A DNA stretch of 33,361 bases from Deltaproteobacteria bacterium (GCA_024276465.1 JAJRXD010000109.1:1-33361), one strand, 5' to 3'; counted from the stretch's first letter, positions 11,275 to 33,361 are shown. Notes: generated by a model from the sequence alone, not told the origin. Made by a program: numbers and translations.

Positions 11275-12927
11275 TTACCTGTTACATAAAAGAAGATATT
11301 GCTTCCAGGATCTGCGCTCTGCATACCTGCTTTCAAGCATTATTTTCCATGGCATATCAGAATATTTTTTTTCAAAATTTCCCGAGGTCATTATTATATA
11401 CCGTTTTTCGGGTAAAGACATAAATCTTTTGGCATCTTCAATTTGACGCCTGGTGAAATATGTTATGTCTCTGCGGGAATAAAATCTCAGGGCATAGTTT
11501 TCATAGGATCCGTAGTATCCCAGAGGTTCTCCGTGGGACAGGACAGAACCAACATATCTGTAAAAAGACTTTGCAGATCCCTCAACATTTATTACAGGGA
11601 CTGAATATGTCAGGTAGAGAAAATGAAACAACAGGACAATTCCTGAAATTGAGAAAAAACAGGCCGTCCCTGGCCGAAGATGCCGACAATATTTATTCAA
11701 CCCTGCGACCAGCATAAAACAGAGGCCAGTAAAAAGAAGGAAACAGGGCAGGTGGGGAAAATGGTCTCCAGGAAAATTTATTTCAAATGGATCGCCTGTA
11801 AAAAAGGAGGCAATGGCTAATACTGCACCTGCATAAAAAAATATGCTTTGAACAGTAGTTGAGGATTTATGTTTCAGTTTCTCTGAGAACCTGTCCCAGA
11901 AAGCATGCCATGCAGCCCCTGTAAGAATTGCCACAGCAGGGGCAAGCGGGGCAAGATAATATTCCCTTTTTGCACTTGAAAATGAAAGAAAAAGCATATT
12001 GCCGAAAATCCACAGAAGGATAAATACATATTCACGACAGAGTTTTTCACCCTGTTTTCTGAAGGCAATCCACAGGGCAGCCGGGAGAAAGAAAATCCAG
12101 GGAAAGAAAACTTTGTAGGTTTTTGCAATATAAAAATAAAATGGTTTGCTGTGTTCATATCCTGCTGAGTAGTATAATATGGTTTCCCAGAACAAAAGAT
12201 GAAAAAATCCCGGAAACCTGTTTAAGATATAGACCACCCATGGAAGCACAATAACAGAAAACAATGCCAGGCCGTATAGAAACGGCCTCCTTATCATGAA
12301 TCCCGCTTCTTTGTACAGAAAAAGATATGCTGCAAGCGGAATGAGGGGAAAAGTAAATGCAAAAGGCCCTTTTGTTATTGTGCCAAAGCCCATCATTGCA
12401 AAAGCACACACAACCCATCGTCCTTCACGGGAACGGTTTTTGTATGCCTTCAGGAAGCAATATACTGCAGCTGTTATAAAAAAAATCAGCAGAGACTCCA
12501 TTTCAGCATAGCGGGCCTCATAGATAAAGATATTTGTGACAAGCAGTGCAACTACAGATAAAACAGCTGATTTTTTATCAAAAAGAAGGCGTGCTATAAG
12601 AAAGGTAAAAAAAAGGGTGCCCAGCCCTCCAACAGCAGATGGAATCCTGGCAGTAAGTTCGCTTACCCTTTGTCCGGGCGTGCAGAGTGCCACAGCCCAG
12701 TAATATAAAGGCGGTTTGGTAAGCATTGGGTTACCACAAAGACGGGGTACAAGCCAGTCACCGGTTTCAATCATTGCCTGTGCTGTCTGAACGCGGCGGG
12801 ACTCCAGTCTTACATGGTAAAAATTAGGGTCTCCAAGCCTGTAAAACAGCACCCATGCTGATACCAGCAATAATAATATGACTATTAAGAGATCACTATA
12901 GCGCGTATGGTGTCCTGATATCTTCAC
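11275..12927 (-). CDS. ArnT-like/PMT family glycosyltransferase, inner membrane (second copy)
   Basis: A 550-residue integral-membrane protein, the same length as E. coli ArnT. The first periplasmic loop reads RLESRRVQTAQAMIETGDW followed by a TKPPLYYW signature (about residues 70-77). In place of the R-Y-A-E core seen at 2052 it has R-R-V-Q, so its donor or catalytic details may differ. Around ten more helices and a C-terminal soluble domain follow. The start is GTG at 12927, supported by AGGA seven bases upstream. It lies 121 bp downstream of the VTT gene and is probably the last gene of the minus-strand cassette. It would transfer the lipid-linked sugar made by that cassette to an unknown acceptor. 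The opposite-facing YejM-like gene ends 141 bp away. Confidence 0.78.
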   Translation of the reverse strand: MKISGHHTRYSDLLIVILLLLVSAWVLFYRLGDPNFYHVRLESRRVQTAQAMIETGDWLVPRLCGNPMLTKPPLYYWAVALCTPGQRVSELTARIPSAVGGLGTLFFTFLIARLLFDKKSAVLSVVALLVTNIFIYEARYAEMESLLIFFITAAVYCFLKAYKNRSREGRWVVCAFAMMGFGTITKGPFAFTFPLIPLAAYLFLYKEAGFMIRRPFLYGLALFSVIVLPWVVYILNRFPGFFHLLFWETILYYSAGYEHSKPFYFYIAKTYKVFFPWIFFLPAALWIAFRKQGEKLCREYVFILLWIFGNMLFLSFSSAKREYYLAPLAPAVAILTGAAWHAFWDRFSEKLKHKSSTTVQSIFFYAGAVLAIASFFTGDPFEINFPGDHFPHLPCFLLFTGLCFMLVAGLNKYCRHLRPGTACFFSISGIVLLFHFLYLTYSVPVINVEGSAKSFYRYVGSVLSHGEPLGYYGSYENYALRFYSRRDITYFTRRQIEDAKRFMSLPEKRYIIMTSGNFEKKYSDMPWKIMLESRYAERRSWKQYLLLCNR

Positions 12928-16287: not shown

Positions 16288-18216
16288 ATGTCAAGAGCAT
16301 CAGCAAACCGTTTTGGAATTATTATCATCCTGTTTTTTATCTTTGAAACCACCTCCATGGCCACCAGGTCTGTACTTGTCTGGTCAAGTTTCAGTGATAT
16401 TGACACAACCCTTGCCGGGATTGTGAAAGTTTTTTTCACTGGCTTAATTTATGATATCGCAGCATTTTCTTATCTCGTAATTCCTTTTACATGCTATCTT
16501 GTTCTGATGCCTGTCAGTTTGTTTCGATCAGGAATCAACAGATGTTTTCTGTATGCTACTGTTCTTGCGGGCATATGGCTTCTTGTTTTTACAGGGGTTG
16601 CCGAATTTTTTTTCTGGGATGAGTTCGGTACCCGGTTTAACTTTATTGCTGTTGACTATCTTGTATATACAAATGAAGTCCTTGGAAACATAAGAGAATC
16701 ATATCCGCTTACAACACTTTTTACGCTTACCGGTGTTGCATCACTGCTTCTTTTTGCTATATGCATGAAACCTGTTAAAATTATGCTGAACACATCAGAT
16801 GCTTTAAAACAAAGAGCAGTACGTGCAGTTCCTGTTTTAAGCCTTTCGCTTATATGCTATGCCTGCATTAATACAGCTGTTCCACGTGTATCTGAAAACA
16901 AATATAACAACAACCTGGCTGCTAACGGAATTTATACTCTTTTTTCAGCATTCAGAAACAACAGTCTGAACTATTATGAATTTTATGCTACCCGCAGCAA
17001 AAAAAAGGTTTTCAACACTCTTCACAAAATGCTTGGGGACTCACATACCGGCTTCACGGATGACAGCACCGGATTTTCTGTCCAGAGGATTATTAAAAAC
17101 AACGGTGGAAAGGAGAAGCAATATAATGTCATTCTTATAATGATGGAAAGCATGAGTGCGGAATACCTGGGGGGCTTAGGAAACACTGACACCCTGACTC
17201 CAAACCTGGATCGCCTCGCAGAAAACGGTCTTCTGTTTACAAACTTTTATGCAACAGGTACGCGTACTGTGCGGGGGATGGAAGCAGTCTGTCTCTCTCT
17301 TCCCCCTACACCTGGGCGCTCCATTGTAAAGCGTCCCCACAATGAAAATCTTTTTTCCATTGGAACTGTGTTTAAGCAAAAAGGCTATGAGAATAAATTC
17401 ATCTATGGTGGTTATGGATATTTTGACAACATGAATTATTTTTTCAGCCACAATGGTTTCCAAATTGTTGACAGGACAAAATTATCTAAAAATGAAATCA
17501 GCTTTGCCAACATCTGGGGAGTATGTGACGAAGACCTGCTTGGAAAGGTTATAAAGGAGGCTGACAAGTCCTTTAATTCAAAAAACGCTTTTTTCTTTTT
17601 TGTTATGACAACCTCCAACCACAGGCCATACACATTTCCTGCTTAAGCGGAAAAAAGCATAAACATTCCTGAAGCTGCAAGGCACAGAGGAAGAAAACGG
17701 GGCGTTAAATACACAGACTATGCTATTGGCAGGTTTTTCGCATCTGCAGAGAAAAAAGCATGGTTTAAAAATACAATTTTTGTTCTTGTTGCAGACCATT
17801 GCGGAAGCAGTTCAGGGAAAACAGACCTGCCTGTAAGAAGATATCACATTCCTCTCATAATATATGCTCCTGGAATTATAAAACCCGGGCGTATGACCAG
17901 GCTGGCAAGCCAGGCAGACACAGCACCAACTATTTTTGATATGCTCAACTGGACATACAAAAGCGCTTTCCTGGGATCATCCATGCTTCACACAAAGAAA
18001 TGTAACGAAAGGGCATTCATCGGCAACTATGAAAAACTTGGTTACATGAAAGACAATATTTTTGTTATGCTTTGTCCGAAAAAGAAGATCAAAACATTCC
18101 AGCTCAGTCATCCTGAAGCTGATCCTCAGGCTGGCCCTGTTCAGGAGCATTATGTTGATGAAACAATTGCATATTACCAGGGAGCAAGCACTGTTTTTGG
18201 ACATCACCGGCCATAA
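16288..18216 (+). pseudogene. LtaS/OpgB-type sulfatase-fold phosphotransferase interrupted by an in-frame TAA
   Basis: Five N-terminal membrane helices (to about residue 200) are followed by a periplasmic alkaline-phosphatase-superfamily domain of the LTA synthase type. These enzymes move phosphoglycerol or phosphoethanolamine to envelope glycans or lipids. The metal Glu lies in IMMESMSAEY (about residues 287-296) and the nucleophile-position Thr is T327 in ATGTRTVRGMEA. At 17644-17646 (codon 453) a TAA follows NHRPYTFPA. The same frame then stays open for 189 more codons to TAA 18214-18216 and carries the rest of the domain: GVKYTDYAIGRF, VADHCGSS (metal Asp-His, codons 503-504) and HIPLIIYAPG. 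Translation ending at 17646 gives 452 residues without the second metal site, so it should be inactive. Everything else is intact, so the change is recent or a sequencing error. Confidence 0.85.
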
Positions 18217-18672: not shown

Positions 18673-18798
18673 TTTGCTTTGCTATTTAGCATAATTTTGA
18701 ATAAACTCTTTTCTCTGCTGAATAGCCTGAATACACTATATGGCAAACAATGAAACTGTTTTTTTAATACGCAGCAGCATGAATTGAAAGAATTTAAA

Positions 18799-19710
18799 AT
18801 GTCACTGAATTTTTCTTTTAAAGTAAAAAAGACACGGGGGGAGGGATCAGGAAACAGCTTGCTGAAAAAAAACGGTCTTTTTTTAAAGGGTGACAGCGGG
18901 GAAACCATTCTTTTAATACACGGGCTTACCGGAACACCAAATGAGATGCGATTTCTGGCAAACTTCTTTAACAAAAAAATGGGCTATACAGTGGTGTGTC
19001 CAAGGCTTGCAAAACATGGTGAACCGATAAACACGCTGAAAAAAATAACCTGGCAGGATTGTTATCAATCCGTCCGTGAGGCTTTTTTGCAGATGCGCAA
19101 CAACAGTAAAGGAGCGGTTTTTGCGTCCGGGCTCTCAATGGGTGCGCTTCTCGCCCTGCTGCTTGGCGAAGAATTCAGTGACACTATTTCCGGCATAACA
19201 TGCCTGTCTCCTACTCTTTTCTATGACGGATGGAACGTACCATGGTATTCTACAATCCTTCTGCCGCTGTTCTATGCAACTCCTCTGAAACATGTTGTCT
19301 ACTTCAAGGAAGATCCTCCTTATGGTTTTAAAAACAAGGCATTACAAAAACGTGTTCATAAACATTTCAGCAGAGCGCGACTAAATGACCCGACCATGGT
19401 TGAACAGTACGGATATCCCTATTTCCCGTTAACACTCCTGCATCAGCTTAACCTGCTGGTAAAGCATCTCACAAAACTGCTGCCTGACATAAATGTGCCT
19501 GTACAACTCATACAGGCAAAAGATGACGATATGACCAGTATCAGAAACTCCACCTTTATTTTAGACAAAATCAATTCAAAAACAAAAGAGCTGGTGCTGC
19601 TTAATGATTCCTATCATGTCATCACTGCTGACCAGGAGCGCGACACAGTGGCGAACAGGATGTATGATTTTTATAAACGAATTACAGGCAGCACGAAAAA
19701 GGAAAACTAA
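18799..19710 (+). CDS. Alpha/beta hydrolase (serine carboxylesterase/lipase-like)
   Basis: 303 residues from ATG 18799. A TTG at 18784 would add five residues but has no better ribosome site. The oxyanion-loop motif LLIHGLTGTPNEM lies near residue 38. The nucleophile elbow GLSMG (Ser near residue 114), an acidic residue in QAKDDDMTS and a His in NDSYHVIT complete a catalytic triad in the usual order. There is no signal peptide, so it should be cytoplasmic. Family members cleave esters, thioesters or amides. Here it begins a five-gene operon with a HAD phosphatase, class III aminotransferase and SMR pair (23 bp to the next gene), so it probably acts on the same small-molecule or lipid intermediate. 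The substrate is unknown. Confidence 0.82.
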   Translation: MSLNFSFKVKKTRGEGSGNSLLKKNGLFLKGDSGETILLIHGLTGTPNEMRFLANFFNKKMGYTVVCPRLAKHGEPINTLKKITWQDCYQSVREAFLQMRNNSKGAVFASGLSMGALLALLLGEEFSDTISGITCLSPTLFYDGWNVPWYSTILLPLFYATPLKHVVYFKEDPPYGFKNKALQKRVHKHFSRARLNDPTMVEQYGYPYFPLTLLHQLNLLVKHLTKLLPDINVPVQLIQAKDDDMTSIRNSTFILDKINSKTKELVLLNDSYHVITADQERDTVANRMYDFYKRITGSTKKEN

Positions 19711-19733
19711 AAAATCTTCTAAGGATAAAAGCC

Positions 19734-20507
19734 ATGCCCTCCAGATATCTGAATGTTATAACCTCGGCACATAAAAAAGATTCTCGCCTGTCACCTGCTT
19801 CACCTGAATCATTCTCGGATATTACAAACTGTATGGTCTGTTTTGACTTTGATAACACCATTACCCCTTTTGATGTACTTGACAGTATCATAGAACGGTT
19901 TTCAATTAACAGAGACTGGATGATATTTGAAAAGGCCTGGAGCAACAGACTTATAGGGTCCAAAGAATGCCTGGAGGGACAGCTCAGTTCAATCCATGTA
20001 ACGAAAAAGGACCTTACTGCATATCTCTCCACAATACCAGTGGATCCATGCTTTATTAAACTTCTTGCTTTGATAAAAAAGATAGGCATGACTCCTGTCA
20101 TATTAAGTGACAGCTTTTCATTTCTAATTAAAACCATCCTGAAAAATAACAAAATCAGCGGTGTCAGGATATATTCAAACACCCTCAGGTTCCGTAAAGA
20201 CCGGCTCATACCTTCATTCCCTTATACTAACCTCCTGTGTGCACATTGTGCCCACTGTAAAACAAGCAATCTCGCAAACAAAACTCATCCGGAAAAAAAG
20301 ATTTTATACATAGGGGATGGACTTTCCGATATCTGTCCTGCACATCATTCCGACATTGTATTTGCCAAAAGCACGCTGCTGAAGCATTTCAGAGAAACGC
20401 AGAGACCCTGCCTGTCTTTTAATGACTTCGGAGATATTTACAACTATATGAGGGAGTATGACAATGAGTCAAGATCAAAGCGAATGCCAACAGCTGCTTC
20501 TGTCTGA
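19734..20507 (+). CDS. HAD-superfamily phosphatase (MtnX/SerB-like, class IB)
   Basis: A 257-residue cytoplasmic phosphatase. Motif I is FDFDNTIT with catalytic Asp38 and Asp40, motif II lies in PVILSDSFSFL, and motif IV is YIGDGLSDICPAH. A helical cap sits between motifs I and II. A short Cys/His cluster, CAHCAHCK, near residue 165 resembles the HC-x-x-C loop of MtnX-like relatives and may bind a metal. The start has AAGGAT about eight bases upstream. The last 44 bases overlap the aminotransferase gene, so the two are co-translated. It probably removes phosphate from an intermediate that the neighbouring aminotransferase makes or uses. The methionine-salvage assignment is not supported by context. 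Confidence 0.8.
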   Translation: MPSRYLNVITSAHKKDSRLSPASPESFSDITNCMVCFDFDNTITPFDVLDSIIERFSINRDWMIFEKAWSNRLIGSKECLEGQLSSIHVTKKDLTAYLSTIPVDPCFIKLLALIKKIGMTPVILSDSFSFLIKTILKNNKISGVRIYSNTLRFRKDRLIPSFPYTNLLCAHCAHCKTSNLANKTHPEKKILYIGDGLSDICPAHHSDIVFAKSTLLKHFRETQRPCLSFNDFGDIYNYMREYDNESRSKRMPTAASV

Positions 20508-21876
20508 GGAAGCAGACCTTCTCGATCTGGAGGCCAGATATTGCTCCTGGGGTGATACAGTCCACTATGCCGGGAAGTTGAATATTTTTATTGCTGCTGA
20601 GGGGAACTGCCTTTATGACCGGAATGGCACTGAATATTTTGATCTTCAGATGTGGTATTCGGCAGCCAGTTTCGGCTACAAAAACAACAGGTTAAACAAT
20701 GCACTGAAAAGGCAGATTGATACACTGCCCCAGCTTGCATGTCAGTATCTGCACGAGGAGAAGATACAGTTAGCCGCAAAACTTGCACAGGGGATAGAAA
20801 AATCTTTTGGCATAAAAGGAAGGGTTCACTTCAATGTGGGTGGGTCCGCTGCTGTTGAAGATTCCCTGAAGATTGTCAGGAACCATTCAGGCAAGAATCC
20901 TGTATTTGCCTTCATGGGCAGTTATCACGGCAGAACCCTTGGTGCGTCTGCTATCACTTCAAGCTACAGATATAGAGAGAAGTTCGGCCATTTTGGTGAC
21001 AGGGCATGTTTTGTTCCATATCCCTACTGTTTCAGGTGTCACTATGAACAAAAAAAAGAAGACTGCGACCTGTACTGCCTGCGACAATTTGAAAAACTGT
21101 TTGAAACCGAATATCATGCAGTCCTGAACACCAAAACAGACAAGTGTGAATTCGGTGCCTTTTACATTGAGGCCATGCAGGGGACATGCGGTTACATCTA
21201 CCCCCCTGCCAACTACTTCCGCGGATTGAAAAAAATCCTTGACAGGTACAATATCCTTATGGTTGATGATGAAATCCAGATGGGTTTTTTCAGGACAGGG
21301 AAGTTCTGGGCCATTGAGCACTTCAAGGTAGTACCGGATATAATAACATTTGGAAAAGCACTCTCAAACGGACTTAATCCTCTTTCCGGCATTTGGGCAA
21401 AAGAGGAGCTTATATGTCCAGAGGTTTTTCCTCCAGGCTCAACTCACTCAACTTTTTCTTCAAACCCCCTTGGCACTGCCGTTGGACTGGAGACAATGAA
21501 ACTTATTGAAGAATCCGATTTTGCCACACAGATTCCTCAAAAAGGCGCCTATTTTGCAGAGCGGCTGCAGGGGCTTCAGAAAAGATACCCCCAGATTGGC
21601 GATGTTGACGGACTTGGACTTGCAATACGGGTTGAGATATGTCAGAAAGATGGTTACACACCAGACAAAAAACTTACTGATGCTGTAACAAACATAGGAT
21701 TAAACGGTGACTTGACTGCTGGTGGCAAAAAGAGGGGTTTGATTCTTGATGTCGGTGGTTACTATAAAAATGTATTCACCATAGCCCCGTCATTTTACAT
21801 AACGTATAAAGAAATAGACCTTGCAGTTGATCTGTTTGAAGAGGCTCTGCAAAAAGGCATTGAACTGTTAAAATAG
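20464..21876 (+). CDS. Class III PLP-dependent aminotransferase
   Basis: 470 residues from ATG 20464, which has GAGGGAG about seven bases upstream. An ATG two codons earlier is too close to that site. Seen features include NVGGSAAVEDSLKIVR, SYHGRTLGA for PLP binding, a Cys-rich insertion YCFRC...DCDLYC (about residues 190-207) common in GABA-transaminase relatives, VDDEIQMGFFRTG with the pyridine Asp, and FGKALSNGLNPLSG with the Schiff-base Lys near residue 297. Such enzymes transfer an amino group to or from an omega-amine or keto group. It overlaps the HAD gene by 44 bases and is 20 bp from the SMR pair, so the product is probably an amine-bearing compound that is then moved across the membrane. 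The substrate is unknown. Confidence 0.9.
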   Translation: MSQDQSECQQLLLSEEADLLDLEARYCSWGDTVHYAGKLNIFIAAEGNCLYDRNGTEYFDLQMWYSAASFGYKNNRLNNALKRQIDTLPQLACQYLHEEKIQLAAKLAQGIEKSFGIKGRVHFNVGGSAAVEDSLKIVRNHSGKNPVFAFMGSYHGRTLGASAITSSYRYREKFGHFGDRACFVPYPYCFRCHYEQKKEDCDLYCLRQFEKLFETEYHAVLNTKTDKCEFGAFYIEAMQGTCGYIYPPANYFRGLKKILDRYNILMVDDEIQMGFFRTGKFWAIEHFKVVPDIITFGKALSNGLNPLSGIWAKEELICPEVFPPGSTHSTFSSNPLGTAVGLETMKLIEESDFATQIPQKGAYFAERLQGLQKRYPQIGDVDGLGLAIRVEICQKDGYTPDKKLTDAVTNIGLNGDLTAGGKKRGLILDVGGYYKNVFTIAPSFYITYKEIDLAVDLFEEALQKGIELLK

Positions 21877-21896
21877 ATTGCGGGCATGGTCAGTAA

Positions 21897-22307
21897 ATGC
21901 AAAGAACAAAAGGCAGACTTACCCCTGTAGTTTTCACCCTCATCATAATGACCGACATCATTGAGTCGTTTGCTGAGTTGTTTTTTAAAAAGGCAGCCAT
22001 GGCAACCAACATCCCTGACGTGGGCTTTTCCAATTTTTTCGACTTCCTTTCACGTATGGCCAGTGGCTCCGGTTTCTGGATTGGCATTTCCTTTTATGTG
22101 ATAAATTTTTTCCTCTGGATTGCAGTACTCTCCCAGATTGACCTGAGTGTTGCATTTCCGACCGGGAGTACCAGCTATATCATTGTTGCACTGTTGTCAA
22201 TTATCTTTTTAGGCGAGCAGGTATCCCCGGCTCAGTGGACAGGAATCCTGTTCATAATTACAGGTATATTTTTTATATCCAGGTCAACTCAGAAAGAGGC
22301 AGAGTAA
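21897..22307 (+). CDS. SMR/DMT-type small transporter subunit (ArnE/ArnF-like), first of pair
   Basis: A 136-residue protein with four membrane helices (about residues 10-28, 58-80, 88-106, 113-131). TM1 contains acidic residues in MTDIIESFAELFFKKAA. TM3 carries LSVAFPTGSTSYI, the V-A-(Y/F)-P signature shared with ArnE/ArnF and other SMR proteins. Two different small subunits from adjacent genes normally form a heterodimer with opposite topologies. ArnE/ArnF flip undecaprenyl-phosphate-Ara4N. This pair could do that for the arn operon 5 kb away, or flip the product of its own operon. Its stop is directly followed by the ATG of the second subunit. Confidence 0.82.
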   Translation: MQRTKGRLTPVVFTLIIMTDIIESFAELFFKKAAMATNIPDVGFSNFFDFLSRMASGSGFWIGISFYVINFFLWIAVLSQIDLSVAFPTGSTSYIIVALLSIIFLGEQVSPAQWTGILFIITGIFFISRSTQKEAE

Positions 22308-22682
22308 ATGACTTTGAAAATATTCATGCTCATCCTGTTAGCAGAAATATGCAGCGCCGGCATGCATATCCTGTATAAAAAAGGGGCCAACAGTCTGGAA
22401 AATGAACCTACAAAAAGCATAAAAGATTATATAATATTTGCTTTCAAGATTTTAAAAATTCCTGTTATATGGTGCGGCCTGGTCATGGTCTGCTGCGGTA
22501 TGGCCATGTGGCTCATAGTACTGGCCCATACTGACCTGAGTGTTGCATTTCCTCTCGACAGCATACAGTACATTATCATACTGGCAGCTTCATTTTTCTT
22601 CCTTGGGGAAAAGTTAAACCGGGAGCGGATCATGGGCACTTTGTTTGTGGTGTTAGGCATTGTACTTGTGGCAACAAAATAG
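22308..22682 (+). CDS. SMR/DMT-type small transporter subunit (ArnE/ArnF-like), second of pair
   Basis: A 124-residue, four-helix protein. TM1 has LLAEICSAGMHILYKKG with a Glu at the position used by SMR drug transporters. TM3 has LSVAFPLDSIQYI, sharing LSVAFP with its neighbour and paralleling VGIAYPMLS in ArnE. FLGEKLNRERIMGTLFVV is the normal SMR loop before TM4. TAA and ATG abut (22305-22310) and AGAGGCAGAG gives a strong ribosome site. It is the last gene of the 18799-22682 operon. Direct downstream DNA is the folded 201-bp repeat element. The flippase role is inferred from family and pairing. Confidence 0.82.
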   Translation: MTLKIFMLILLAEICSAGMHILYKKGANSLENEPTKSIKDYIIFAFKILKIPVIWCGLVMVCCGMAMWLIVLAHTDLSVAFPLDSIQYIIILAASFFFLGEKLNRERIMGTLFVVLGIVLVATK

Positions 22683-22699
22683 TGCCGTGTTAACTTACA

Positions 22700-22900
22700 C
22701 CTAAATTGAGCGATTCTAAATATATACTTTTTGCAAAGGACAGTCACAGCAATAACTTTGAACGGATTTAAGCATTACATAAGTTTCACCTGGAGGGTGA
22801 AGCGTAATGCTTACCTCGGAGGCAGTCAGGGATGTCTGCCGAGAATGAGTGAAAAGCTGTTGCTGTGACCTCTGCAATATGAAAAATCGCTCAGTTTAGG
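22700..22900. mobile_element. MITE-like 201-bp element with 16-bp terminal inverted repeats and nested hairpins
   Basis: The ends CCTAAATTGAGCGATT (22700-22715) and AATCGCTCAGTTTAGG (22885-22900) are inverted copies matching at 15 of 16 bases. Inside, TCACAGCAA/TTGCTGTGA (22744-22752/22860-22868), TAAGCATTAC/GTAATGCTTA (22769-22778/22804-22813), TTCACC/GGTGAA (22785-22790/22796-22801) and CTC-GGCAG/CTGCC-GAG (22815-22825/22836-22843) form further stems. TTAC occurs one base outside the left end (22695-22698) and directly at the right end (22901-22904), a possible 4-bp target duplication. There is no coding capacity. It fills the gap between two convergent genes, so it could also end transcription in both directions. 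A structured RNA is an alternative. Confidence 0.65.
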
Positions 22901-22933
22901 TTACGGTTGTCATTTCCAATGGTCCAAAATGCT

Positions 22934-23863
22934 TCAGTTTATCAACGCTTTTAAAAGCTTGATATTCGTCTGCCCGTTTATCGAACGTATAGACGCTGCA
23001 TTTTGCCCTTTGGCAGTGTAATTGTTCGGGTGGTCAATGAGCGAACATATGGTTTTAAACCACCCTGCCAGTTTTGGTGCCGAATAATCTCCTGCTATAT
23101 CAACACCGCAAATATCCATATGCTCTTTTATCATCCGCAGCAACAGGAGCAGTTCACTGAGATCAAAACATCCTTCTTCCCAGTTTGTCAGAGCATAATC
23201 AGCCTTCAGGCAGTCCTTGTCAATACTGACATACACACGTTTAGTCTCAACCTCTGACAGGACATTTAAAAAAAACTCCTCTAAATTCCTGCCCCTGAGT
23301 CCCTGCCAGTATATATCCCTGCACAGCCATTTTCTTTTTATACGGATAGATCTATTGGACGGTACATGCTTGAAGACATTGATGGTAGGCTGGTGTGCAT
23401 AAGGGTATATCTCCACTCTGTTACCGGACAAAGATCGCAGATTGGCACTGTAAATCGACAGGCTTGAGATGTCGGAAGAAGATATGCCGCAGAGGATTAC
23501 TTTTTTAACATTCCGTTTTTCGAGGATCTTCGTTACCCATGAACCGCATGCCGCGCTGGGTGGAAGCATGTTCCAGTCAGGGTGATGGTCAAATATGATT
23601 ATGCTGATGGGTTCATCAAATTGACCGATCAGAAGGCTGGAGATATGGTGAAAGTCCCCTGACCCTATAAACGTTATGGAGTTCTTCTTTGCCGGTTCCA
23701 GAGCCTTTGTGACTTCCCGGGCTGCTCCGGCACTTAGCCAAAGCCGGCTTGCAGGTCCGATTCTTTTAAGGTCAACAATTTCAGGGCTGAACTGTTCAAT
23801 AAGATTGTTCTGTTCAATAAGGCTATCATCAAAATTAAGTATGCGAATTGACTCAGACAGCAT
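22934..23863 (-). CDS. Arginase/ureohydrolase-fold enzyme of unknown substrate
   Basis: A 309-residue protein with the ureohydrolase metal ligands in the expected order: GSGDFHH (residues 67-73) for the first His, FDHHPDWN (D92, H94, D96) and SIDKDCL (D215, D217). This supports a binuclear manganese centre. The usual substrate-recognition loops of arginase (S-H-G-D and the E-V-N-P-like motif) are not recognisable; the latter position reads GVDIAGDYS. It may therefore act on a guanidine or amide other than arginine. AAAGG lies about ten bases upstream of the ATG. It faces the aminotransferase-SMR operon and shares the minus strand with the acyltransferase-like gene upstream, 61 bp away. A link to amine metabolism is inferred from these neighbours. 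Confidence 0.78.
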   Translation of the reverse strand: MLSESIRILNFDDSLIEQNNLIEQFSPEIVDLKRIGPASRLWLSAGAAREVTKALEPAKKNSITFIGSGDFHHISSLLIGQFDEPISIIIFDHHPDWNMLPPSAACGSWVTKILEKRNVKKVILCGISSSDISSLSIYSANLRSLSGNRVEIYPYAHQPTINVFKHVPSNRSIRIKRKWLCRDIYWQGLRGRNLEEFFLNVLSEVETKRVYVSIDKDCLKADYALTNWEEGCFDLSELLLLLRMIKEHMDICGVDIAGDYSAPKLAGWFKTICSLIDHPNNYTAKGQNAASIRSINGQTNIKLLKALIN

Positions 23864-23924
23864 ATATTTAAAAACCTTTTATCTGTATCAGGGGCATAAA
23901 AATGACACAAACCAATAAGCGCGC

Positions 23925-25022
23925 TCAGACAGACAAAAATTTTGAAAGAATCTTTAACACGAGATTAAGCAGAGGGTTAGTGTGTTTTACATATGCATAG
24001 AGGGGAACGAGTTTTCCTCCCAGTTGTTTTTTGGGGGCATAATCAGTCTGCCCCACCTGGTAATGGTGTATGGAGTTTTGCAGACACCAGTCCACATTAT
24101 AGCACCAGCTTAAAAAATACAAGCTGTAATCATAGGCTATATCGTAATCAAAACCAATAAATTTATCAATGAGCAAATCCCTGTGGACAAAACAGAGGTT
24201 GAAAGCCGCAAGCCGTCCGTTTACATGATAAAGAAAATATTTACACCCTGGGCCTAAATTTTCTGCTATTTTTGTAAAAAATTCTTTGGTGAGTTTTTCA
24301 AATCTTGTCTTGCCGGCATTATGGGTGTTTTCATAAAGCCTGTAGATATCATCAACGATATCTGCAACGTTCTGTACAACCATTACAGTAATGTCAGCCT
24401 TTGCATAGGCTTTCCTGAGCTTGCGCCTCAGGCTCTTTCTTGTTCCACGGCTTAAACTTTTAAAGTATGCATCCATTGAGTCAAACCCCAGATCAACAAT
24501 GGCTGACGGAAAGCTGTCGGTCTTAAAAAAACCATGTTCTGTGAGACAATCAAGGGTTTGGGTATCAGCCTCCATAAAATCCTTAAAAACAATCAGAGAA
24601 ACATCATTTTTTTCAGCAAACATGTTAAGTATGTTAATCAGTTGAGAGATGATGCCCGGATTATCCTGCCTGTTATTTGCAATGCCCAGCATTCCGTTTT
24701 CACCAAACGGTGATCCGCAAAACAGTGTTTTAAAAACAAGAAATTTTGGTATAATCCTGCGAATACGCCGGATTGAACTGCCAACAGTCTCCTCAAGGAC
24801 AGAATCGACATCAAACCTGGTGATGAACAGGGGTGCTATTAAAACAGGCTTTTCATCTTCATAAAGAAGGACATAATAGAAGGAAAATTCTTCAAGACCG
24901 GATTCCTCAAGTGCTTTATAAAAGCGATACCCTTCTGGAATATCTCCAAAAATCAGATCCCACTCCTGTTTTTTTATTTTACTAATTGAGTCTATAATTT
25001 TATAATTAATAGTGTCTGTCAT
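23925..25022 (-). CDS. FemAB/GNAT-fold acyltransferase-like protein
   Basis: A 365-residue soluble protein with no signal peptide. The pattern is two GNAT-like halves, as in FemAB/BioF2-type proteins. The first half contains FKTLFCGSPFGENGM. A basic central helix, SLSRGTRKSLRRKLRKA (about residues 190-206), follows. The second half contains KYFLYHVNGRLAAFNLCF and LYFLSWCYNVDWCL, then the ending HHYQVGQTDYAPKKQLGGK, which is typical of this group. Relatives attach amino acids or acyl groups to lipid- or sugar-linked amines. It is probably co-transcribed with the arginase-fold gene (61 bp gap) and is divergent from the DegT gene at 25099. A role in N-acylating an aminosugar or amine is inference. 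Confidence 0.7.
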   Translation of the reverse strand: MTDTINYKIIDSISKIKKQEWDLIFGDIPEGYRFYKALEESGLEEFSFYYVLLYEDEKPVLIAPLFITRFDVDSVLEETVGSSIRRIRRIIPKFLVFKTLFCGSPFGENGMLGIANNRQDNPGIISQLINILNMFAEKNDVSLIVFKDFMEADTQTLDCLTEHGFFKTDSFPSAIVDLGFDSMDAYFKSLSRGTRKSLRRKLRKAYAKADITVMVVQNVADIVDDIYRLYENTHNAGKTRFEKLTKEFFTKIAENLGPGCKYFLYHVNGRLAAFNLCFVHRDLLIDKFIGFDYDIAYDYSLYFLSWCYNVDWCLQNSIHHYQVGQTDYAPKKQLGGKLVPLYAYVKHTNPLLNLVLKILSKFLSV

Positions 25023-25098: not shown

Positions 25099-26337
25099 AT
25101 GAATATTTTCAGAGAAATACCTCCAACAGCCGGCTTTCCCCTCCATGCAAAAGATTTCTTGTCGGCGTTTACGGCAAAAGTCAGGCAGGATGACTGTCTG
25201 GAAAAGGATTTTAAAAATTACCTTGATGTTCCATCTGCACACATAACCTGTTCCGGCACCGCTGCATTATATATCATTGCCAAGACATTAAAGGAAATAT
25301 CTCTGAAAAGGACCATCATTATACCTTCATTTATATGTCCCCTTGTGCCCCTGGCTGTAAAAAGGGCTGGTTTTGATGTGGAGGTATGCGACATAGAAAA
25401 GGACTCCTTTAACTTTAACTCTGATGAGTTGGAAGCAATATGTTCCGGCAGGGATGACATTGCCGCTGTTATCATCAATCACCTGGCAGGTATTCCGTTT
25501 GATTTTGACAGTATAAAAGATGTTGTTAAAAAACATGGACTGTTTGTTATTGAGGACTGTGCTCAGGCACTGGGTGCACTATATAAGGGAAGAAAAGTGG
25601 GAACGCTGGGAGATTTTTCGTTTTTCAGCCTTGCTGCGGGAAAAGGCCTGACGCTCTATGAAGGCGGGGCTGTCCTGACAAACAGAATGGAATACGCCAC
25701 GGCAATTGAAGATAAGACAAAACAGCTTCTGCAGGGCAATATCATCAACGAAAGCATGCGGGTGCTTCAGTTGATAGGCTACGGGGCTTTTTACCGGCCA
25801 GAACTGTTCTGGTTCGTGTTCAGGCTTCCTGAAATGTTCTGGGACCTGCAGGGCAAAAAGCTGAGAGCTGCAAGGGAATACTTTACCATTGATTTTCCCC
25901 TGCATTCAGTGTCCCGGTTCAGAAAATCAGTGGGCCATGTTACGTTTAGCAGTCTGAATGACCAGATAGACAGACAAAGGGCAAAAGCATCAGACATAAT
26001 AGAAGGACTTAAGGGTCTTAAAGGCATCAGGGTATTAACAGAGGCCCCCCATGACAGGGCAACCTATCCGTATGTAGCAGTACTGTTTGATGAGCAGGCT
26101 AAACAAAAAAGAGCTCTGGAAATGTTTAAAAATTCAGGGCTTGGCATATCCAGGATCTATGCTCTCGCTGTTTCCGATTACGACTATCTGAGCGATTTTG
26201 TTCCTGACAGAAACTGCTCCAACGCCCGTTCTGTAGCAGACAGGGCCATTACCCTGTCCACAAGCTTCTTTTTAGATCAAAACGAGATTGATAAGATAGT
26301 ACAAACAATGTCTCACCTGAGTTCTTCCCTTTTCTGA
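25099..26337 (+). CDS. DegT/DnrJ/EryC1/StrS family aminotransferase (divergent member)
   Basis: 412 residues, longer than the other two family members in the window. PLP features are present: CSGTAALYIIAKTL for the phosphate site, VIEDCAQALGALYKGR with Asp153, and FFSLAAGKGLTLYEGGAV with the Schiff-base Lys182. An insertion of about 40 residues follows (about 215-255, YRPELFWFVFRLPEMFWDLQ), hydrophobic and aromatic, and absent from the ArnB-type copy at 27947. It could touch membrane or an acyl-linked substrate. The start has only a weak AAAGAAG site. It is divergent from the acyltransferase-like gene (76 bp), and its 3' end overlaps the opposite-strand nuclease-like gene by 25 bases. Confidence 0.82.
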   Translation: MNIFREIPPTAGFPLHAKDFLSAFTAKVRQDDCLEKDFKNYLDVPSAHITCSGTAALYIIAKTLKEISLKRTIIIPSFICPLVPLAVKRAGFDVEVCDIEKDSFNFNSDELEAICSGRDDIAAVIINHLAGIPFDFDSIKDVVKKHGLFVIEDCAQALGALYKGRKVGTLGDFSFFSLAAGKGLTLYEGGAVLTNRMEYATAIEDKTKQLLQGNIINESMRVLQLIGYGAFYRPELFWFVFRLPEMFWDLQGKKLRAAREYFTIDFPLHSVSRFRKSVGHVTFSSLNDQIDRQRAKASDIIEGLKGLKGIRVLTEAPHDRATYPYVAVLFDEQAKQKRALEMFKNSGLGISRIYALAVSDYDYLSDFVPDRNCSNARSVADRAITLSTSFFLDQNEIDKIVQTMSHLSSSLF

Positions 26338-27106: not shown

Positions 27107-27652
27107 TCATGACAGCCCCTTGTATCTGAGAAACAGGGCAGACCATATGGAAAGAACAATCAGCAGGAAATACTGTTCCCGGTTTTCCTGCCAGAACAAA
27201 TCAAAGCTCCATTTCCTTTTTACGGCAGCCGGATAGGGCTTTAGCCTGGGAATAAGGCTTCTGGCATAATCAGCATATCTCACATAAGAATCACCGAACA
27301 GGTCCTCAAGCCAGGCCATCTCCTTTTTGTATTTCCGGGGAAGATAGTTAAGAAAGAATATTCCAAGCGCAGCAGGAAGCAGGATCAGACTGTAGCTCCA
27401 GCCCATTGTGCAGAAGCCTACAATTAAAAAAAATCTTCCGAGATACAGGGGATCCCTTACGTAAGCGTATGGCCCCGAGGTTGTAAGCTCTTTTTTTCTG
27501 AGAAGATGCCCTGCTGCCCACATTCTGATTGTCTCTCCGATACAAACTATAATGCCACCGGCCATCATTGAGGCTTTACTGGGACTTGCAAGCAGTATCA
27601 GCACTATAACACCTGCTATGAGACCTGCGGTTTTTTTCTGACTTGTTCTCAT
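27107..27652 (-). CDS. ICMT/PEMT-type membrane methyltransferase
   Basis: A 181-residue membrane protein with about four hydrophobic helices. The SAM-binding signature of the isoprenylcysteine carboxyl methyltransferase/phospholipid methyltransferase family is present as TSGPYAYVRDPLYLGRF (about residues 59-75; most relatives have R-N-P-x-Y). FGDSYVRYADYARSLIPR is the usual C-terminal motif. AAGGTG lies seven bases before the ATG. Substrates in bacteria are mostly unknown small molecules or lipids. It lies 104 bp upstream of the nuclease-like gene on the same strand and is divergent from the arn operon. Confidence 0.82.
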   Translation of the reverse strand: MRTSQKKTAGLIAGVIVLILLASPSKASMMAGGIIVCIGETIRMWAAGHLLRKKELTTSGPYAYVRDPLYLGRFFLIVGFCTMGWSYSLILLPAALGIFFLNYLPRKYKKEMAWLEDLFGDSYVRYADYARSLIPRLKPYPAAVKRKWSFDLFWQENREQYFLLIVLSIWSALFLRYKGLS

Positions 27653-27946: not shown

Positions 27947-29074
27947 ATGAAAAAAGAATTTATCCCCATGAGCAGGCCGTTTCTTGGAACAGAAGAGACA
28001 GAGGCCGTAGCTGCTGTTATGAAATCGGGCTGGATAACAACAGGCGCCAAATGCGCAGAGTTTGAAGACAGGTTTGCAGAACTTACAGGGGCAAAGCATG
28101 CATTAGCATTAAGCTCGGGCACTGCGGGAATGCACCTGATGCTTAGGGCCCTTGGCATAAAAAAAGGCGATGAGGTAATAACCCCTTCCATGACATTTGC
28201 CTCCACTGTAAACCAGATAGTGCTTGCCGGAGGAAAGCCTGTTTTTGCCGATATTGATTACGACACCATGCTTATTAAACCTGCTGAGATAAAAAACCTT
28301 ATAACTGATAAAACAAAAGCTGTTATTCCTGTTCATTTTGCCGGGGCGCCGGCAGACATGGATGCCATTGAGACAGCAACGGGCAATATTCCGATTATAG
28401 AGGATGCTGCCCATGCAATCGGCACCCGGTACAGGGAAAAACATGCAGGATATAAAAACCCTGCCATATTTTCATTTCATCCCATTAAGAACATTACAAC
28501 AGGGGAGGGAGGGATGATAACCGGCAATGATGGGCAACTGATGCAGCAACTGAAACTGATGAGGTTCCACGGTATTGAACGCGATGCCTGGAAGCGCTAC
28601 GGCAAGGGATCTGACCCGGGTTATGACATATCAGAACCAGGATTTAAATACAACATGACTGACATCCATGCTGCCATCGGTCTGACTCAGATGAAACGTC
28701 TCAATACAATTACACGCAGGAGAAATGAAATTGCCTCTCAGTACATTCAGAGCCTTTCCGGGATAGACGGCCTGGATCTCCCTGGTGTTCCAGTGTTTAA
28801 CCATGATCATTCGTGGCACCTTTTTGTTGTGAAAGTCAAATCCATAAGCAGGAAAGATTTTATGACGGGTCTGGCAGAAGAGAATTTAGGATACGGGCTT
28901 CATTTTCCGGCATGTCATACCATGACCTACATAAAGAACCTCTTTGGTGTAAGCAGACTGCCTGTAACAGAGAGCCTGGCTGGAAAAATTATAAGCCTGC
29001 CAATCTATCCGGGAATGGATGACATGCAGGTTCAGCGAGTCATTGATGTGGTAAGGAATCTTGTGAAGAGATGA
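27947..29074 (+). CDS. arnB: ArnB: UDP-4-amino-4-deoxy-L-arabinose-oxoglutarate aminotransferase
   Basis: A 375-residue PLP enzyme close to E. coli ArnB throughout. Shared landmarks are SGWITTG (residues 28-34), SSGTAGMHLMLRALG, PVHFAGAPADMDAI, IEDAAHAIGT with the pyridine Asp, and FHPIKNITTGEGG with the Schiff-base Lys181. It makes UDP-L-Ara4N from the 4-keto sugar and glutamate in the cytoplasm. The ATG is preceded by AAGGAAG at a good distance. It is the first gene of the arn operon, with 72 bp to arnC. Of the three DegT-family proteins in the window, only this one carries the ArnB signature, so the assignment is strong. Confidence 0.93.
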   Translation: MKKEFIPMSRPFLGTEETEAVAAVMKSGWITTGAKCAEFEDRFAELTGAKHALALSSGTAGMHLMLRALGIKKGDEVITPSMTFASTVNQIVLAGGKPVFADIDYDTMLIKPAEIKNLITDKTKAVIPVHFAGAPADMDAIETATGNIPIIEDAAHAIGTRYREKHAGYKNPAIFSFHPIKNITTGEGGMITGNDGQLMQQLKLMRFHGIERDAWKRYGKGSDPGYDISEPGFKYNMTDIHAAIGLTQMKRLNTITRRRNEIASQYIQSLSGIDGLDLPGVPVFNHDHSWHLFVVKVKSISRKDFMTGLAEENLGYGLHFPACHTMTYIKNLFGVSRLPVTESLAGKIISLPIYPGMDDMQVQRVIDVVRNLVKR

Positions 29075-29146
29075 ACTCCCTGTCACATGCCTGAGCAGGA
29101 TTAAGCAAAATCCTGACTGTATATTCAAACTATGGAGTCATAAAAA

Positions 29147-30121
29147 ATGCATGCAAAAAAAATATCCGTTGTTATTCCTGTTTATAACGAAAGCAGGGTG
29201 CTTGAAAAACTTTTTGCAAGGCTGGTTCCGGTCATGGAACACCTGGGCCGTGACTACGAAGTGCTGTTAGTGGATGACGGAAGCACAGACAACTCTCTTG
29301 AAATCCTCATGCAGCATGCAGGCAGTAAAATAACGGTAATTGAGCTTACACGAAACTACGGCCAGCATGCTGCTGTCTTTGCAGGTTTTGAGAACAGCCG
29401 GGGTGAGATTATTATCACCATGGATGCAGACCTTCAGAACCCGCCCGAGGAGATCCCAAGAATCATCCAGGTCATGGAACAGGGAAACTATGAAGTGGTC
29501 GGTACCGTTCGCAGAAACAGACAGGACTCGATATTCAGAAAAGTTTCGAGCAGTGCTGTAAATGCCTTTACCCGCCGCATTACAGGTGTCTGCCTCAAAG
29601 ACTGGGGTTGCATGCTGCGGGGCTACAGGCGTCATGTTGTGAATTACATGCTGGAAAGCCGTGAGCACTCTACATTTATCCCTGCCCTGGCCGCCTCATT
29701 TGCCAAGGACGTTATTGAAATAGAGGTTGATCATGAGGCACGCTATGCAGGCAAATCAAAATACTCCCTGCCAAAGCTCATATCCCTGCAGTTTGACCTG
29801 GTCACCTCATTTTCAGATTTCCCCCTGAAATTCATGTTTTATGCAGGCATGTTTCTGGCGTTTTTCGGTATTACATTTGGAACAATCCTGGCAATTGCAA
29901 GACTCTGCTTTGGCGCTGCCTGGGCAGTTGAAGGTGTATTTACTCTTTTTGCAGTACTTTTCTTTTTAGTTGGCGCCCAGTTCCTTGCCTTTGGTGTTAT
30001 GGGTGAGTATGTCGGGCGTATATACAGAGAGGTCAAAAAGAGGCCTCCATATACTGTACGGAGGATTCACGAAAAGTCGCCCAAGGGCGCACTATACAAA
30101 ATCAGGGAAATCTGCTTTTGA
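29147..30121 (+). CDS. arnC: ArnC: undecaprenyl-phosphate 4-deoxy-4-formamido-L-arabinose transferase
   Basis: 324 residues, against 322 in E. coli. The N-terminal GT2 domain has VVIPVYNES, VDDGSTDNS and the metal-binding MDADLQNPPEE (DxD at residues 93-95). It then carries RRITGVCLKDWGCMLRGYRR, typical of ArnC. Two C-terminal membrane helices (about residues 230-255 and 265-290) hold it to the inner membrane. It moves formyl-Ara4N from UDP to undecaprenyl phosphate. GGAG lies about ten bases before the ATG. Its TGA overlaps the TTG start of the next gene. Confidence 0.94.
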   Translation: MHAKKISVVIPVYNESRVLEKLFARLVPVMEHLGRDYEVLLVDDGSTDNSLEILMQHAGSKITVIELTRNYGQHAAVFAGFENSRGEIIITMDADLQNPPEEIPRIIQVMEQGNYEVVGTVRRNRQDSIFRKVSSSAVNAFTRRITGVCLKDWGCMLRGYRRHVVNYMLESREHSTFIPALAASFAKDVIEIEVDHEARYAGKSKYSLPKLISLQFDLVTSFSDFPLKFMFYAGMFLAFFGITFGTILAIARLCFGAAWAVEGVFTLFAVLFFLVGAQFLAFGVMGEYVGRIYREVKKRPPYTVRRIHEKSPKGALYKIREICF

Positions 30122-31032
30122 AGACTGTAGTGTTTGCTTATCACAATATGGGAGTCCTGGGGATAAAAGCGCTTCACAGGGCCGGTTTTGACATACCCCT
30201 GGTTTTCACACACAGGGACAGCGCAGAGGAAAACATATGGTTTAACTCTGTTGACCGGCTTTGCAGACAGAAAGGAATAAAGTGTGTAAAACCTGAATCT
30301 TCCAATACGCGGGAATGGACAGCATGGATAAAGGCTGAAAGTCCTGACATCATATTCAGTTTTTATTACAGGGAAATGCTCTCTAAAGAGATTATTGAAA
30401 CTCCATTGTCCGGGGCATACAACCTTCATGGGTCATATCTGCCTGCATACAGGGGCAGGTGCCCTGTAAACTGGGTACTTATAAACGGGGAGAAACACAC
30501 AGGCGTAACCCTGCATGAAATGGTGGAAAAGCCTGATGCCGGACCCATCGTGGCTAAAAAAAAGGTCGCAATAGCCCATGATGATACTGCATTGACCCTT
30601 TTCAGAAAGCTTGAGCAGGCTGCTGATGTTATGTTAGCCCATATCCTGCCGCAGATAAAGCGAGGGGAGTTTCAGAAGACATATCAGGACTTAAGCCTGG
30701 GATCATACCACAAAGGCAGAAAGCCGGGGGACGGCCGCATTTCATGGCAAAAACCTGCTGAAAAAATTTACAACCTTGTACGCGGAATTACTTATCCCTA
30801 CCCTGGGGCCTTCTGCTTTCATGCGGGGAAAAAGATGATCTTGTGGCAGGTACTTCCGCATGCAAAAGCTTCTTCAGCTCCCGGCCGCATAAAAATTGCC
30901 GGCAGCCGGGTTTTATTCGGCACAACAGAAGGAAGCGTGGAACCTGTTGAGGCTGAAATTGACGGCCGTAATTTAAAGGGCGATAATCTGCTGAGTTATT
31001 TTAAAAATCATGAAGGAGAATACCTGCAATGA
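30118..31032 (+). CDS. arnA: ArnA formyltransferase domain as a separate protein
   Basis: 304 residues, equal to the N-terminal half of E. coli ArnA. It formylates UDP-L-Ara4N with N10-formyl-tetrahydrofolate. The catalytic residues fall at the same numbers as in E. coli: Asn102 and His104 in [13 protein letters not shown], and Asp140 in [10 protein letters not shown]. The start is TTG at 30118. The next residues, [11 protein letters not shown], match the ArnA N-terminus exactly in register, which settles the start despite the rare codon. Its TGA overlaps the decarboxylase start as ATGA (31029-31032), so the two halves are made as separate, coupled polypeptides. In enterobacteria they are fused. 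Confidence 0.92.
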
Positions 31033-32087
31033 AAATACTTATTCTTGGTGTTAACGGGTTTATCGGATCACATCTCAGTGAGAGGATTTTAAATGAGACC
31101 GGCTGGGAGATTTACGGAATGGACCTTGGCAGAAACAAGCTTTCAACCATTTCTCACAGTAAAAGGTTCCACTTTATTGAGGGGGATATTTCAATAAACA
31201 AGGAGTGGATAGAATATCATATAAAAAAATGCGATGTGGTGCTGCCGCTCGTTGCTATCGCAACTCCAAGAACCTATATAGAGGACCCCCTGGGGGTGTT
31301 TGAGCTGGACTTTGAAGAGAACCTGAGGATAATCAGGCAGTGCGTAAAGTACAGAAAAAGGGTAATATTCCCTTCCACATCCGAAGTCTATGGCATGTGT
31401 ACAGATGAGGAGTTTGACGAAAGCACGTCCAATATTGTTCTCGGCCCTATTTACAAGCAGCGATGGATATACTCATGCTCCAAGCAGCTTCTTGACAGGG
31501 TAATCTGGGCATACGGACAAAAAGACGCTCTGGATTTTACCCTGATAAGGCCGTTTAACTGGATCGGGCCCAGGCTTGATTCCATCGAAACAGCAAAAGA
31601 AGGTTCATCCCGTGTGGTAACCCAGTTTATAGCCAACCTGGTTCATGCTGAACCGATAGTGTTAGTTGACGGAGGCAGCCAGAGCAGGTCCTTTACCTAT
31701 ATTGATGATGGAATTGACGCTCTGATAAAAATCATTGCAAATGATAAGGGTGTTGCAAGCGGTCAAATATTTAACATAGGCAATCCTGCCAACAACTGCA
31801 CCATAAAAGAACTTGCCGAAAAGCTGTCTGATATTTACAGGGATCATCCGTCAAACATAATCTCAGGACCTTGCTCTGAAATCATTGTTAAGGATGCCGA
31901 TATATACTACGGTCAGAGTTATCAGGATATCCATTCACGGGTTCCGAACATTCAAAAAGCTCAAAAGATTTTAGGATGGGCTCCAAAGATACCCCTTGAC
32001 GATGCATTGAAGCAGACGATTAACAGCTTTTTAGAAGATATAATTCCGCTGACCAGGGAAAAAGGGCCGGCTGTCTGCCATGCATAA
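31029..32087 (+). CDS. arnA: ArnA decarboxylase domain as a separate protein (UDP-glucuronate decarboxylase)
   Basis: 352 residues, an NAD-dependent SDR enzyme equal to the C-terminal half of E. coli ArnA. It oxidises and decarboxylates UDP-glucuronate to the 4-keto-pentose used by ArnB. Seen features are the NAD loop GVNGFIGSH (residues 8-16), [29 protein letters not shown] with Ser118 and Glu119, and YSCSK with catalytic Tyr148 and Lys152. DIHSRVPNI near the C-terminus holds an Arg at the position of ArnA Arg619. Its ATG overlaps the formyltransferase stop. Its own stop overlaps a possible small ORF that leads into arnD. Confidence 0.93.
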
Positions 32088-32172
32088 AGCTGTTAAACAA
32101 AAAAACCCCTGTTTTATCTGTGGCTTTCCACGTGATGCGGGATATCATTCAAACAACAATATGAAACTATGA
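32080..32172 (+). CDS. Possible 30-residue CxxC small protein or coupling ORF between arnA and arnD
   Basis: ATG at 32080 overlaps the last 8 bases of the decarboxylase gene. The frame runs 30 codons to TGA 32170-32172, which overlaps the arnD start as ATGA. The peptide has an N-terminal basic stretch and a C-F-I-C pair (residues 11-14). No ribosome site is seen before arnD, so translation of this frame could deliver ribosomes to arnD. AGGG lies 12 bases before its ATG, which is weak. A chance frame is possible. Confidence 0.3.
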
Positions 32173-33293: not shown

Positions 33294-33361
33294 GTTAGCT
33301 TTTGGCCATTCATTTCTTCTTATGGCTTAGCCTATGATCTGTGACCTTGCCCTCAGGGCAA

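Follow-up and report, generated by a model that had tools for sequence, protein, structure and literature searches.

A stretch of 33,361 nucleotides from a deltaproteobacterium (GCA_024276465.1, JAJRXD010000109.1:1-33361; here the window) carries eight genes that, on balance, we take to form one conserved cassette that would make and translocate an amine-bearing envelope lipid. They encode a class III pyridoxal phosphate (PLP)-dependent aminotransferase (AT3), which defines the cassette, a HAD phosphatase (HAD), an alpha/beta hydrolase (ABH), a pair of small transporter subunits of the SMR/EamA type (SMR1 and SMR2), a ureohydrolase-fold metallohydrolase (ARG), a FemAB-like transferase (FEM) and a DegT-family aminotransferase (DEGT). 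The initial annotation of the window had joined the first seven of these; they do belong together, but the set is larger, as DEGT had been left out. The enzymes come from known families and their combination appears to be undescribed. We found nothing usable on the gene set or the pathway in the open-licence literature, so this absence carries little weight; the main text of a paper on the besRS regulon of B. thailandensis (PMC9426598) names neither an aminotransferase nor an arginase. If the proposal is true, a whole class of bacterial membrane lipid, together with its flippase, has been overlooked. The proposal is readily testable, since Rhizobium, Agrobacterium and Phyllobacterium, which can be cultured, carry the cassette on plasmids, where it is linked to a two-component system.

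Recurrence of the cassette across phyla

The initial annotation had named a lack of conservation outside this strain as what would refute it and had proposed a search of genomes for co-occurring families; that refutation clearly fails, as the partners recur, re-ordered, in several phyla and on rhizobial plasmids. Searching species-representative genomes with AT3 returned at least 80 loci, mostly from Omnitrophota, with others from Acidobacteriota, Actinomycetota, Alpha- and Betaproteobacteria, Desulfobacterota and one member of the Myxococcota. On plasmids, tblastn with AT3 found 34 records of at least 57.6% identity, chiefly from Rhizobium and Agrobacterium and also from Bartonella, Phyllobacterium and Xanthomonas sacchari, and no further ones down to an E-value of 1e-60; judged by these matches, the AT3 family is sharply bounded. 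A set of 99 loci was then assembled with diverse queries and drawn by AT3 similarity. It contains near copies and has one genome twice (L091 = L113), many of its contigs are short, the Omnitrophota are represented solely by metagenome-assembled genomes, and the taxonomy of such genomes can be wrong.

When the neighbouring open reading frames (ORFs) were clustered without labels, the six families found most often next to AT3 were HAD, ABH, SMR, FEM, DegT and ARG. HAD is present at 89 of the 99 loci, ABH at 61, the SMR pair at 48, FEM at 44, ARG at 41 and DegT at 32, the last being found with other partners in Omnitrophota, in the relative G003 and in several Proteobacteria. Wherever HAD occurs (89/89) it adjoins AT3 in the same direction, lying upstream in 87 cases. 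Loci that lack no more than one of the six partners gave 17 arrangement strings, some of which are truncated versions of others, and there are at least 15 distinct arrangements, spread over Omnitrophota, Desulfobacterota and Alpha-, Beta- and Gammaproteobacteria. Order and strand thus vary while content is kept, and functional linkage is therefore strongly indicated.

The same association is seen across whole genomes. Among 247 Desulfobacterota genomes, nine carry AT3 (E-value 1e-120 or better) and all nine carry HAD, which is present in 43; ARG is found in four genomes, three of them with AT3, and FEM in seven, four of them with AT3. Each co-occurrence with AT3 exceeds expectation (hypergeometric p of 1.3e-4 for ARG, 2.8e-5 for FEM and 6.9e-8 for HAD), and in all three genomes that have both AT3 and ARG the two genes share a contig and are no more than 7 kb apart. 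Such grouping goes far beyond what chance would give.

In a tree of AT3 sequences, the window and the members of its family belong to a group with SH-aLRT support of 97, in which 61 of the 67 rows are from Omnitrophota, whereas sequences from other Desulfobacterota families fall elsewhere. Transfer of AT3 between Omnitrophota and Desulfobacterota, in either direction, is likely.

Protein families and a predicted lipid pathway

AT3 is a clear member of the class III aminotransferases (Table 1); its PLP lysine (K295 in query numbering) is invariant among the aligned homologues, with which it shares 56-78% identity across phyla. Against the substrate-specific NCBIfam class III equivalogs its best score is 288.5 bits for a cut-off of 552, none of the 25 matches listed reaching its cut-off, and a PDB sequence search returned general class III homologues only. 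HAD belongs to the MtnX-like HAD-IB subfamily (TIGR01489, 112.5 bits for a cut-off of 81.55) and its catalytic motifs DFDxT, S, K and GDGxSD are kept among homologues; it falls far below the model for MtnX proper of methionine salvage (TIGR03333, 68.7 bits for 303.2), and its matches in the PDB sequence search are chiefly relatives of MtnX and of phosphoserine phosphatase. Because the two genes are almost obligate neighbours, we propose a joint step: AT3 would aminate a phosphorylated keto compound and HAD would then remove the phosphate to leave an amino-alcohol core. Serinol phosphate, which RtxA makes from dihydroxyacetone phosphate (PMC3222319), is attractive as the AT3/HAD product but is kept as no more than a candidate, there being no sequence evidence that links AT3 to RtxA. 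In one Omnitrophota clade (L072, L074, L075) AT3 stands alone, with the phosphatase and the other partners not nearby. In other Desulfobacterota, HAD-IB relatives (L146, L147, L148) are fusions with a further HAD phosphatase domain, which gave no hint of a substrate.

The remaining proteins have recognisable folds and distant relatives. ARG, which the initial annotation had credited with all metal ligands of a ureohydrolase, indeed has the six canonical ones (H72, D92, H94, D96, D215 and D217) invariant in 26 homologues. Its AlphaFold2 (AF2) model (pLDDT 92.8) matches arginase, formimidoylglutamase and guanidinase folds with Z of 22-23 over 233-235 residues at 2.6-2.7 A, and its identity to solved ureohydrolases is 12-17%. 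FEM is FemAB-like with a tandem GNAT fold; its AF2 model (pLDDT 92.9) matches FemX, FemA and aminoacyl-tRNA-dependent peptide synthases with Z of 21-22 over about 273-305 residues at 3.1-5.4 A, the MprF catalytic domain with Z of about 18 and N-myristoyltransferases with about 17. PDB sequence searches with ARG and FEM gave no significant match. The translation of ABH carries a GLSMG nucleophile motif. The SMR proteins most resemble ArnE/ArnF: SMR1, with several transmembrane-like segments, scores 41.3 bits with the ArnF model (cut-off 99) and SMR2 38.2 bits with the ArnE model (cut-off 92), so that by the NCBIfam equivalogs neither is assigned to ArnE/ArnF, both scores being under half of the cut-offs. 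DEGT scores 74 bits with the ArnB model whereas the real ArnB of the window, at 27947, scores 453, and on these scores DEGT is distinct from ArnB.

What joins the cassette elsewhere points to the nature of the product. In Desulfobacterota the order is HAD-AT3-ACP-KS-ABH at one locus (L117; ACP, acyl carrier protein; KS, beta-ketoacyl synthase of the FabF class, here above the FabF cut-off) and ACP-KS-HAD-AT3-ABH at L113; KS is also found in Omnitrophota (L017, L066, L083 and others). Xanthomonas sacchari has HAD-AT3, KS-ACP, a GNAT protein, an arginase, DegT, an EamA pair and ABH, followed by HlyD/ABC/TolC. In Rhizobiales the order is two-component system-HAD-AT3-arginase-EamA-[fatty acid desaturase]-ABH-FEM-EamA-[cyclopropane fatty acid synthase]-MipA/OmpV, the bracketed genes being present in some strains only. 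Acidobacteriota have two glycosyltransferases like monogalactosyldiacylglycerol (MGDG) synthase, a polysaccharide deacetylase, HAD, AT3 and an AMP ligase. A PEMT-like methyltransferase lies between AT3 and FEM in three Omnitrophota loci (L031, L038, L048) and also near the cassette of the window. In variants of the cassette, some members are replaced by KS and ACP or by an AMP ligase. Read from these gene contents, what the partners have in common is the chemistry of lipids and of the envelope, and the core that stays constant is HAD-AT3. At four of the Acidobacteriota loci (L079, L080, L086, L088), HAD-AT3-AMP ligase is preceded by the deacetylase and by MGDG-synthase-like glycosyltransferases, of which L079 and L080 have two; still further upstream, some of these loci have genes for ABC transporters and radical SAM proteins. 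They possibly represent an undescribed glycolipid cluster.

A lipid product is favoured because of the KS/ACP, desaturase, cyclopropane synthase, MGDG-synthase-like and PEMT-like partners at other loci. In the pathway that we propose, each step of which is read from the enzyme's family, FEM would attach an acyl or aminoacyl group to the amino-alcohol core through an amide linkage, the acyl or aminoacyl groups being added, from locus to locus, by KS-ACP, an AMP ligase or FEM. ABH and ARG may release, transfer, trim or deprotect a group, DEGT would install a second amine, and the SMR pair would flip the finished lipid over the inner membrane, as ArnE/ArnF do for undecaprenyl-phosphate-4-amino-4-deoxy-L-arabinose (Ara4N). 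The initial annotation had likewise suggested a single pathway to an amine-bearing compound or lipid head group with export, and the re-ordered co-occurrence and the lipid-enzyme partners speak for it. Its other suggestion, a guanidine-bearing product, had no support beyond the ureohydrolase fold and was dropped, since a ureohydrolase removes a guanidine by hydrolysis and does not install one. A more speculative version, which we hold only tentatively, is that AT3-HAD opens an undescribed route to an amino-alcohol membrane lipid that is non-glycerol or amide-linked, with interchangeable acyl-activation modules and its own SMR-pair flippase; Omnitrophota, Acidobacteriota and Desulfobacterota would share this route, and Rhizobiales would carry it on plasmids.

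The benefit to the cell is the weakest step of the proposal: a less anionic envelope would likely withstand cationic peptides. The two-component system of the Rhizobiales loci is, by its best models (QseB 207.9, PmrA 193.6, QseC 187.7 and PmrB 142.8 bits, all below cut-off), of the PmrAB/QseBC kind, and MipA of P. aeruginosa binds polymyxin and is controlled by, or acts with, ParRS (PMC10936184). EptA and a diacylglycerol kinase at locus L101 likewise belong to an envelope-stress setting. The regulatory context suggests that the cassette may contribute to withstanding cationic peptides.

Alternative products and known systems

Several points weigh against the lipid pathway. Apart from FEM and ABH, the cassette of the window has no dedicated acyl-chain enzyme, and KS/ACP, the desaturase and the cyclopropane synthase occur at only some loci. 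AT3 reaches no substrate-specific model, the FEM fold is common to acetyl-, myristoyl- and aminoacyl-tRNA-dependent transferases, and the product is a prediction from the genes. Moreover, tripartite efflux genes (HlyD/ABC/TolC) adjoin the cassette in Xanthomonas sacchari and on two Agrobacterium plasmids, which would fit a soluble exported compound. The alternative that survives best is that the product is such a compound, a specialised metabolite bearing an amine (a small amino alcohol or amino acid, N-acylated) that leaves the cell through the SMR pair and the adjoining efflux pumps. The best Foldseek matches of FEM do include aminoacyl-tRNA-dependent peptide synthases of streptothricin-type pathways. 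We nevertheless regard it as rather unlikely: the neighbours that recur around AT3 include no efflux genes, and the desaturase, cyclopropane synthase, FabF/ACP, MGDG-synthase-like and PEMT-like partners suggest a lipid.

It is also conceivable, if quite improbable, that the cassette is an accessory of Ara4N or lipid A modification, the SMR pair being the ArnE/ArnF of an adjacent arn operon and the rest tailoring lipid A or an undecaprenyl-linked aminosugar. A split arn operon does follow the cassette (27947-33023; ArnB-ArnC-formyltransferase-UDP-4-ketopentose synthase-ArnD, with the ArnA functions in the two separate proteins in the middle), two ArnT-like proteins are encoded in the window (2052-3536 and 11275-12927), and just one further SMR1 relative was found in the genome, which is interrupted by a stop. 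However, no ArnA or ArnD homologue was found at any other cassette locus examined, the relative G003 has the whole cassette and no arn genes across 36 kb, and neither ArnA, ArnC, ArnD nor ArnT is among the recurring cassette partners. The low ArnE/ArnF scores of the SMR pair also argue against this scenario, and an intact arnE/arnF may lie past the end of the contig at 33361. Because ArnA and ArnD homologues were not found at these other loci, we regard the cassette and the operon as separate units; in the window strain the SMR pair could serve both. The cassette does resemble arnBCADTEF in its paired SMR proteins, which are weakly ArnE/ArnF-like, its DegT-family aminotransferase and, in Rhizobiales, a two-component system of the envelope-stress type, but as conserved it is without UDP-sugar enzymes, formyltransferase, deformylase and ArnT.

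Equally improbable, in our view, is a role in modifying a surface polysaccharide (capsule, O-antigen or another), to which the cassette would supply an amide-linked amino alcohol or aminosugar from an undecaprenyl phosphate carrier. DegT, GT2 and PMT genes near the cassette in the window, and the glycosyltransferase and deacetylase partners in Acidobacteriota, would suit this role, but most rhizobial and Acidobacteriota loci lack DegT, and there is no glycosyltransferase that accompanies the cassette throughout. That the genes are chance neighbours without a joint function, as might be argued because each enzyme family is common by itself, is rejected, since specific subfamilies recur re-ordered across phyla and co-occur across genomes.

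Returning to an amine-bearing lipid as the probable product, other known systems share parts of the cassette. With the ornithine-lipid type (OlsB/OlsA) it would share an amine-bearing, amide-linked membrane lipid, but it differs in its GNAT family and in having a transaminase and a phosphatase as a dedicated pair, and a Pfam scan of the eight cassette proteins found no OlsB-type N-acyltransferase. According to one report, alternative lipids of the ornithine-lipid kind are linked to antibiotic tolerance (PMC11828411). Nor did the Pfam scan reveal a serine palmitoyltransferase, as in bacterial sphingolipid synthesis, the PLP enzymes of the cassette being of class III and DegT type only. The lysyl-phosphatidylglycerol synthase/flippase MprF has the tandem GNAT fold of FEM and the same logic of transferase plus flippase, but the cassette has a separate SMR pair in place of the MprF flippase domain, and identity is 10-15%. 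ARG shares its fold and six metal ligands with arginase and agmatinase, but identity is 12-17% and its conserved motifs GSGDFHH, DxHPDW and TNW are distinct. Exosortase A (PEP-CTERM) accessory clusters likewise bring a FemAB-like protein together with alpha/beta hydrolases and with acyl activation at a single locus; among the recurring partners of the cassette, however, no exosortase or decarboxylase was found.

Gene layout and other features of the window

An ORF scan of the window found all seven genes of the initial annotation in place and reproduced its junctions: 23 bp between ABH and HAD, an overlap of HAD and AT3 (the HAD stop ends at 20507 and AT3 starts at ATG 20458 or 20464), 20 bp between AT3 and SMR1 and 0 bp between SMR1 and SMR2. 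ARG and FEM are separated by 61 bp. Its family assignments were borne out as well, by structure models and by Pfam calls that exceed the curated gathering scores for all seven ORFs (Table 1).

Table 1. Positions and family matches of the cassette genes and of an optional partner in the window
Gene	Predicted product	Coordinates	Strand	Family match
ABH	Alpha/beta hydrolase (S33 / Est30-like); alternative start TTG at 18784	18799..19710	+	Pfam Hydrolase_4, 59.5 bits
HAD	MtnX-like HAD-IB phosphatase	19734..20507	+	TIGR01489; Put_Phosphatase, 61.1 bits
AT3	Class III PLP aminotransferase (defining gene)	20458..21876	+	Aminotran_3 (PF00202), 261.8 bits (gathering score 30.5)
SMR1	SMR/EamA-type small transporter subunit 1	21897..22307	+	EamA, 37.7 bits
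SMR2	SMR/EamA-type small transporter subunit 2	22308..22682	+	EamA, 40.3 bits
ARG	Ureohydrolase-fold metallohydrolase	22934..23863	-	Arginase (PF00491), 35.2 bits (gathering score 22)
FEM	FemAB-like tandem-GNAT acyl or aminoacyl transferase	23925..25022	-	PF04339, 59.7 bits (gathering score 27)
DEGT	DegT-family PLP aminotransferase (eighth member)	25099..26337	+	PF01041, 162.4 bits
	PEMT/ICMT-like membrane methyltransferase (optional partner)	27107..27652	-	PEMT, 25.2 bits

Two further genes of the window and one distant locus deserve mention. Upstream of the cassette, a sulfatase-family gene with an N-terminal membrane part (16288-18216) is split by one in-frame TAA (17644-17646) and may be a pseudogene or an assembly error. 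At 9187-11133, directly after an AcrB/HlyD efflux pair, lies a homologue of the YejM/PbgA-like envelope metalloenzymes (179.9 bits for a cut-off of 825). On a plasmid of a Bartonella isolate from bat faeces (L098:11929-17932), AT3 and FEM occur with an ARG-like protein, and the places of the usual partners are taken by an AlgX-like SGNH protein and an MBOAT acyltransferase.

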